From: Thermoplasmatales archaeon | Lineage (GTDB): Archaea > Thermoplasmatota > Penumbrarchaeia > Penumbrarchaeales > Penumbrarchaeaceae | DNA: 48,850 bases | Reading direction: 5' to 3' | Assembly (NCBI GenBank): GCA_030595715.1 | Contig: JAUVCN010000005.1 | Span: 1-48,850 of the forward strand | In this document: one piece after another, positions 1,890-5,751 of the stretch | Position numbering within the stretch: the stretch's first letter is position 1 | Layout of the letters: every line of letters starts with the position of its first letter | The notes under the pieces: model-generated | Seen by the model: the letters and a program-made list of their open reading frames with translations, nothing else | Database searches by the model: none | What the model was told of the DNA's origin: nothing | Translations under genes and position numbers: made by a program

Positions 1890-2009
1890 GTTGCAGGGGT
1901 CTCGGAAGAGAGGATTGTTCAGCATATTGGAGTGATACACCTAAGAAACAGTTACTCCCCTGCAACGTAGTTCGTATAGCGAGTTGTATGGGGCGATGAT
2001 CCATACAAC
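1890..2009. repeat. Two accessory GC-richer hairpins of R1
   Basis: GTTGCAGGGG (1890-1899) pairs exactly with CCCCTGCAAC (1957-1966) across 57 nt, and GTTGTATGG (1983-1991) pairs with CCATACAAC (2001-2009) around a 9-nt loop. They lie between the repeat unit and the argF promoter. Neither is followed by a T-run, so they do not look like ordinary terminators. They have no counterpart by sequence in R2. Confidence 0.6.
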
Positions 2010-2070
2010 AACTAGTAAGTTACTTCAATCGATATAAACCTTATTGGAATAGGAACATATCCGTTCGGAA

Positions 2071-5287: not shown

Positions 5288-5330
5288 TAGAGTTAGACCA
5301 AACGTGGGATCTAAAATGGGATGCACTCTG

Positions 5331-5384
5331 TAGGGGCCCCGGCTATTTTTCGGGGGAAAAATGGGGCCCCTATGCTCTTTTTTG
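5331..5384 (+). terminator. GC-rich hairpin terminator after the RHH gene
   Basis: TAGGGGCCCC (5331-5340) pairs exactly with GGGGCCCCTA (5363-5372), and inside it ATTTTTC (5345-5351) pairs with GAAAAAT (5356-5362) around GGGG. A six-T run follows at 5378-5383. This resembles an intrinsic terminator about 45 bp past the RHH stop, although the T-run is also one arm of the next hairpin, so the roles may overlap. Confidence 0.55.
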
Positions 5385-5424
5385 AAAAATGAATTGTAAA
5401 CACTTCCAATCATTTTTCAAAAAA

Positions 5425-5515
5425 GCCCGTAAAACAGTTTTATTGAATCGACGCTCTGTTTTACTGGGCCTCGAACTTACGTATCTTTGTTGAATAGACG
5501 GAAGTAAGTTACGAG
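5425..5515 (+). repeat. Gamma and alpha hairpins, R2 copy a
   Basis: Gamma: GCCC pairs with GGGC, T5465 is unpaired, and GTAAAACAG pairs with CTGTTTTAC around 18 nt. Alpha begins at the very next base: CTCG pairs with CGAG, A5511 is unpaired, and AACTTAC pairs with GTAAGTT around 23 nt. The gamma stem sequence differs almost completely from the R1 copy while the pairing, bulge position and abutment to alpha are kept. Confidence 0.82.
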
Positions 5516-5610
5516 TTCATCGCAACTCTAAGGAATTTTTTTAAATAATCAGCATCTTAGAAAAAAGTCCCCACAATGAGTATAGGATTGACGGTTTAAT
5601 TACGCTGAGC

Positions 5611-5655
5611 CTCGAACTCACGTCATTTCAAAAATTAACAAGAGTGAGTTACGAG
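5611..5655 (+). repeat. Alpha hairpin, R2 copy b
   Basis: CTCG pairs with CGAG, A5651 is unpaired on the 3' arm, and AACTCAC pairs with GTGAGTT around a 22-nt loop. Compared with copy a, the fifth inner pair is C-G instead of T-A, a double compensatory change. The preceding gamma is mutated on one arm and pairs only partly. Confidence 0.8.
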
Positions 5656-5751
5656 TTCAACAGAAATTCTAAGAACCCATTATGGAATATTATACTTAGA
5701 TAAAAGTCCGCTGAATGAAATGTTCAACTACAATGCCCCCATAGACCATAC

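Follow-up and report, generated by a model that had tools for sequence, protein, structure and literature searches.

What are the bulged hairpins that recur at this archaeal locus, and how did they come to be there? The window, by which we mean the whole 48,850-nt stretch of DNA that was analysed, contains three copies of a hairpin that we call alpha, at 5470-5515 and 5611-5655 on the plus strand and at 1752-1797 on the minus strand. Their stems are CTCG-AACTTAC / GTAAGTT-A-CGAG (first copy, 23-nt loop), CTCG-AACTCAC / GTGAGTT-A-CGAG (second copy, 22-nt loop), and CTCG-AACTTCC / GGAAGTT-A-CGAG (third copy, 23-nt loop), and all three agree with the original prediction: the arms are perfect complements apart from an extra A, which sits on the 3' arm four pairs from the base. 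The prediction had placed the set at 5470-5655, which is correct for the two plus-strand hairpins; the third lies outside that range and on the opposite strand. The stems are real, but the earlier account missed the two hairpins that accompany alpha, with which it forms a repeated and probably mobile unit.

A repeated three-hairpin unit

Alpha is the 3'-most hairpin of a gene-free unit of ~140-150 nt in which the hairpins stand in the order P-beta-alpha. The P hairpin (~45 nt) is a stem of at least ~10 pairs closed by roughly 17-29 nt of loop. The beta hairpin (~44 nt) lies directly upstream of alpha and has a single bulged base, usually T, on its 3' arm, and alpha (~46 nt) likewise has a single bulged base on the 3' arm, the A bulge. 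The loops of beta and alpha have an AAYYGACG motif near the 3' arm in common, the GNRA-like sequences GAGA, GAAA, GTGA, and GCAA precede the alpha 3' arm, and a fourth hairpin is added in some forms of the unit.

Two arrays of these units are present in the window. The plus-strand array starts at the T-run of a terminator hairpin (TAGGGGCCCC..GGGGCCCCTA, then the T-run; 5331-5372) that belongs to the upstream ribbon-helix-helix gene and is kept in the nearest relatives. In the first unit, the terminator T-run forms part of the left arm of P (5377-5425, 16 bp, 17-nt loop); beta (5426-5468) pairs CCC-GTAAAACAG with CTGTTTTAC-T-GGG around its T bulge and has TTGAATCGACG in the loop; and alpha (5470-5515) has its A bulge at 5511 and GAATAGACG in the loop. 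The second unit consists of a decayed P and beta (5528-5609) and an alpha (5611-5655) with the A bulge at 5651. A truncated third unit, read by eye at 5664-5725, has P-like arms TCTAAG..CTTAGA and a beta left half, TCCGCTGAATGA, and is followed by the hflX leader. On the minus strand, the second array comprises P (1842-1886, CTTTTTTCAAAG / CTTTGAAAAAAG), beta (1799-1841, TCC-GCTGAAT / ATTTAGC-T-GGA), and alpha (1752-1797, A bulge at 1756), together with remnants at 1610-1730, where another P-like hairpin (1730-1685) is accompanied by orphan alpha 3' halves carrying GACGAAAG. These remnants are as nested insertion and decay would leave them. Upstream of this array, positions 1890-2010 (minus strand) hold an RNA-gene-like block with a GTTGCAGGGG..CCCCTGCAAC stem and T6, for which there was no Rfam match.

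The 3.07-Mb genome has 10 matches to the alpha pattern and none to the pattern read backwards, and chance does not account for it. A covariance model of alpha detected 46 strong copies in the same genome, spread over 26 places, and 1-6 per genome in most members of the same family. Every genome used is a MAG in many contigs, and several arrays run to contig ends. Among the 57 genomes searched, alpha matches occurred in six of the seven other same-family genomes and in both genomes of the sister family (same order), with none in the other genomes of the class and phylum, in agreement with the class search. When 84,980 species were scanned for the form seen in relatives, with part of the first-look candidates scored, matches came solely from Thermoplasmatota MAGs.

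Tandem copies were seen at two further loci. Locus L042 (G000:C33) holds a pair of near-identical ~168 nt copies, which suggests a recent duplication of the unit. Locus L060 (G004:C203) is a three-unit array with a 135-nt period, in which the beta arms switch wholesale from CTC-CCCCAAC to ACC-AACCAAC with pairing maintained.

Insertion and nesting of units

Two kinds of comparison bear on whether the unit moves. At the first locus, the ribbon-helix-helix gene and hflX adjoin in all seven (7/7) same-family relatives, and the array between them is absent in all seven. Comparison with these genomes shows the hflX array as a lineage-specific insertion at the terminator T-run.

Second, comparing arrays with one another gave pairs of empty and filled sites; the P loop, the beta 3' arm, and the alpha loop all served as sites, and the inserts measured 145-154 nt. 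The sequence CCATTGTTGA|TGCGTCTCG is continuous in contig C95 and has ~150 nt inserted at the same point in C176, and the window beta at 1799-1841 is the empty form of a beta that is interrupted in C146. Split alphas with 12/12 matching arms contain, after the 23-nt loop, an insert of exactly 150 nt (C127) or of 151 nt (C89); one further split alpha, with one arm mismatch, contains a 304-nt insert, or twice the unit.

All nested units are in one orientation. Directly 3' of TTGA or CTGA (offset 0-2 nt) lie 18 of the 25, counted by eye, and since copies partly share an origin and several descend from one event, these represent fewer than 25 independent events; the same relatedness means that counts of changes and junctions throughout this study are not counts of independent events. 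Nested units without TTGA/CTGA mostly have GAGA or GAAA before the P arm; some alpha-loop insertions follow GAGA or GAAA, and one is near GATC. Inspection of the junctions by eye revealed no target duplication in the cleanest cases (the alpha splits at C127b and C89) and no clear terminal inverted repeats in the units. The right junctions differ between copies (AAGGA, ATAAT, CATG, ATTG) with no obvious common motif, and the right ends of units are uncertain, as boundaries were judged by eye on these junctions. The overlap of the P left arm with terminator T-runs had raised the idea that P arms are copied from the target, which we dropped because nested copies bring their own P left arm.

We consider the unit to be, with fair probability, a non-coding and transposase-free palindromic mobile element of ~150 nt that inserts into its own hairpins and works like the IS200/IS605-derived PATEs.

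Search for an enzyme

We searched for genes that might move such a unit. No Y1 (HUH) transposase (PF01797) was found in the genome itself or in 10 genomes of the order, with five control genomes positive, and no TnpB was found above the cut-off. Reverse transcriptase was not found in the genome itself and is present in two relatives. The only tyrosine recombinase of the genome is a single contig-end fragment, and the two complete ones that we looked at are Xer-like. For integron integrase, the best related recombinase from three genomes reached 187 bits against an NCBI cut-off of 265 and was equally close to archaeal XerA. The original prediction read the fixed extra base as a protein contact or a recombination-type hairpin, and the second reading gains indirect support: alpha-bearing units have entered the P, beta, and alpha hairpins of other units, all in the same orientation. 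Alpha itself is a putative recombination site, Y1 is absent from these genomes, and an integron integrase is unsupported.

The same searches bear on a stronger claim, that the units are true IS200/IS605-family derivatives (PATEs) whose Y1 transposase has been lost or is encoded in genomes beyond those sampled. Insertion in one orientation, mostly 3' of TTGA/CTGA, the absence of target duplication, the palindromes, and the lack of a clear terminal inverted repeat all fit this claim. IS200/IS605 elements combine insertion of this kind with bulged hairpins; ISDra2 inserts 3' of its target, TTGAT (PMC2806898), and the IS605-derived, transposase-free PATEs of Haloquadratum carry palindromes near their termini, lack inverted repeats, and do not duplicate the target (PMC3119063). 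Against it, no Y1 was detected in the order although the search works in the controls, and a right-end cleavage motif is not obvious in the units. Both the loop length (22-24 nt) and the run of three contiguous hairpins also set the units apart from the usual ends of IS200/IS605 elements. We regard true membership as somewhat unlikely, if the best placed of the alternatives, and have not filed the unit under IS200/IS605 or PATEs because Y1 was not found in these 10 genomes; having tested for Y1 and not found it, we can say that the unit works like these elements and not that it is a member.

Gene context and the copies of relatives

Placement relative to genes raises the question of whether the unit acts as RNA. 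With gene context set by codon-usage scoring, array and upstream gene agree in strand in 25 cases and disagree in 5, and the downstream gene shows no strand bias (18 vs 14). Two arrays follow rRNA genes (16S and 5S), and most copies sit just 3' of another terminator. In relatives, copies are mostly single and have the order P, beta, alpha, and a terminator-like hairpin with a T-run, and this last hairpin covaries. The sister family has a divergent form of alpha in which the bulge is absent.

Several side observations concern these regions. Five loci of relatives (L058, L062, L063, L069, L072) have extra small hairpins between beta and alpha, such as TGCCAAT..ATTGGCA. At L071 of the sister family (G008), repeated blocks carry the tRNA T-arm-like GGTTCAAATCCCGG in a long inverted repeat with CCGGGATTTGA and adjoin a TTGACG-loop hairpin. 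Separately, the ribbon-helix-helix gene contains in its 3' region ATGGGATGCACTCTGTAG (window 5316-5333), a perfect complement of CTACAGAGTGCATCCCAT (L032; G000:C47:6617-6632); the latter is part of an RNA-gene-like block that precedes the C47 array. Only at those two places does the genome match the 16-nt core of this pairing exactly, and counterparts of both blocks are present in G005; an antisense RNA and its target are a possible reading.

The terminator-like hairpin and T-run that end the relatives' copies count against the mobile element and fit an RNA element. P-beta-alpha, with or without the terminator, would then be a non-coding RNA or a 3'-UTR module, the transcript of which binds a protein or protects 3' ends, and copies could have spread by any means. 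The strand shared with the upstream transcription unit (25 of 30 cases), the copies that follow 5S and 16S rRNA genes at two loci, and the GNRA-like sequences before the alpha 3' arm speak for this reading as well. Against these stand the location of most copies just 3' of another terminator, the lack of a match to any Rfam family, and the precise nesting, which requires a mobility mechanism in any case. A known RNA family in particular was rejected, as the window gave no Rfam match at the gathering score and the related loci matched solely rRNA, tRNA, and chance hits. Base pairing in alpha weighs in the same direction: the 261 cells of the interior pairs comprise 251 Watson-Crick, 3 G-U, 3 A-C, and 4 other pairs, and G-U, being no commoner than A-C, hints at DNA rather than RNA, albeit in small numbers. 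Because of the sense orientation and of the terminator in relatives' copies we keep a structured RNA in consideration, and judge it unlikely as the main explanation.

Pairing and bulge are kept while bases change

The original prediction took the paired changes between alphas as selection for pairing, not sequence. One-arm changes did not prove as common as two-arm changes: an 18-row alpha alignment had 27 double-changed cells, 0 one-sided, and 2 unpaired, a count that is partly circular as rows were partly chosen for pairing. In the 39 distinct alphas of the genome, found with a covariance model that rewards pairing, 405 cells were Watson-Crick, 12 were G-U (8 of these in the terminal pair), and 12 were mismatched; two out-of-register copies account for some of the mismatches. 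The bulge in these alphas was A in 33, T in 5, and G in 1, and in 13 same-type alphas of relatives it was A in 11 and G in 2.

Beta is a fairer test of pairing than alpha. Candidates were sought by position upstream of alpha, and 24 distinct betas, picked by eye as the single-bulge class, had 97.9% Watson-Crick cells, with 53 double changes vs 5 non-Watson-Crick cells in a pairing-anchored count; re-pairing their arms between copies gave 65.7% (maximum 77% in 1000 trials). The bulge was T in 21 of the 24. As these betas had been picked by eye, we also ran an unselected test over all upstream stretches, and 24 of the 51 distinct 52-nt stretches upstream of alpha formed a single-bulge hairpin with at least 9/10 Watson-Crick pairs; re-joining halves between copies gave 3.0 such stretches on average (maximum 8), and shuffling letters gave 0.06. 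The arms of P vary widely between copies yet remain complementary.

A constraint on pairing rather than sequence is supported, also by beta, but selection is not its only possible source, since template switching can yield paired changes without it (PMC8794818). Under such mutational homogenisation, replication would switch templates in quasi-palindromes so that one arm is rewritten from the other, and double changes would arise with no selection for pairing. In known cases, template switching has made new hairpins and repaired existing ones, introducing both compensatory changes at once (PMC8794818; PMC3820800), and the rarity of G-U intermediate states in alpha and beta also speaks for it. 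It would be expected to erase a bulge as readily as a mismatch, yet the A and the T are kept at the frequencies given above, and it leaves the conserved loop motif, the dispersal, and the precise 150-nt insertions unexplained. We give it the least weight of the three alternatives. A viral origin was rejected, with 0 exact matches in viral contigs and loose-pattern matches that look like chance.

A proposed mode of movement

Structured RNA and template switching can each be partly true alongside mobility, and the weights that we give to the alternatives and to the favoured explanation are for this reason not meant to sum to one. Returning to the transposase-free mobile element, sequence comparison shows its insertion, nesting, placement, and kept pairing and bulge. 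We infer that the element would move as a folded single strand, that its bulged hairpins may be handles for a recombinase supplied in trans, and that its targets are probably single-stranded or hairpin-forming DNA. The recombinase may have been lost or be of an unrecognised type, and the working form could be DNA or RNA.

A bolder proposal, for which we hold out limited expectation, would place the unit in a new class of archaeal mobile elements. Members of this class would travel as folded single strands and insert into the hairpins of their own kind, moved by a recombinase unrelated to Y1 transposases or integron integrases, and the bulged-base hairpins would be the recognition code. If true, an uncultured archaeal order would carry a self-nesting hairpin family in which structure is kept to the single bulged base while sequence changes. 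This would amount to a natural record of what the putative single-strand recombinase can read, and a clean case in which to separate selection for pairing from mutational arm-copying.

Comparison with known systems

Group II and IIC introns show nested insertion, sites after terminators, and a bulged A in domain VI near the 3' end, and the unit resembles them in all three respects. Unlike these introns, it is far too short, its own genome has no reverse transcriptase, and no group II family was among the Rfam matches of the window and related loci. Integron attC sites and CALIN arrays (PMC3053210; PMC2727003) are similar in their imperfect hairpins with extrahelical bases, their location downstream of genes, and their low sequence conservation. 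The units differ from them in having no cassettes, in being nested rather than tandem, and in the lack of any integrase over the NCBI cut-off, and judged by eye the alpha and beta arms do not fit the attC R boxes (RYYYAAC / GTTRRRY).

The REPs of Escherichia coli are also numerous intergenic hairpins, and a bulge is required for the strand-specific action of TnpA-REP on their folded single-stranded DNA (PMC8266576). REPs have a 5' GTAG, short loops, and a chromosomal Y1 gene for TnpA-REP, none of which we found here; GTAG was not consistent before hairpins in the sequences inspected, and we do not assign the units to the REP / TnpA-REP system.

By analogy, the PATEs and SMR-A repeats of Haloquadratum are the closest described elements. 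SMR-A repeats are transposase-free mobile repeats that insert into the palindromes of other elements (PMC3119063), and the units resemble them in size (~110-150 bp), in the absence of target duplication, and in sitting within other elements' palindromes. SMR-A repeats have prominent terminal inverted repeats and attack other families, whereas the units here have no clear ones and attack their own kind. From PATEs the units differ in that no Y1 gene was found in the order, in their three contiguous long-loop hairpins with covarying arms, and in their insertion into the same type of element. Like PATEs, they live in archaea, are small, gene-free, palindromic, and dispersed, lack both clear terminal inverted repeats and target duplication, and are themselves insertion targets.
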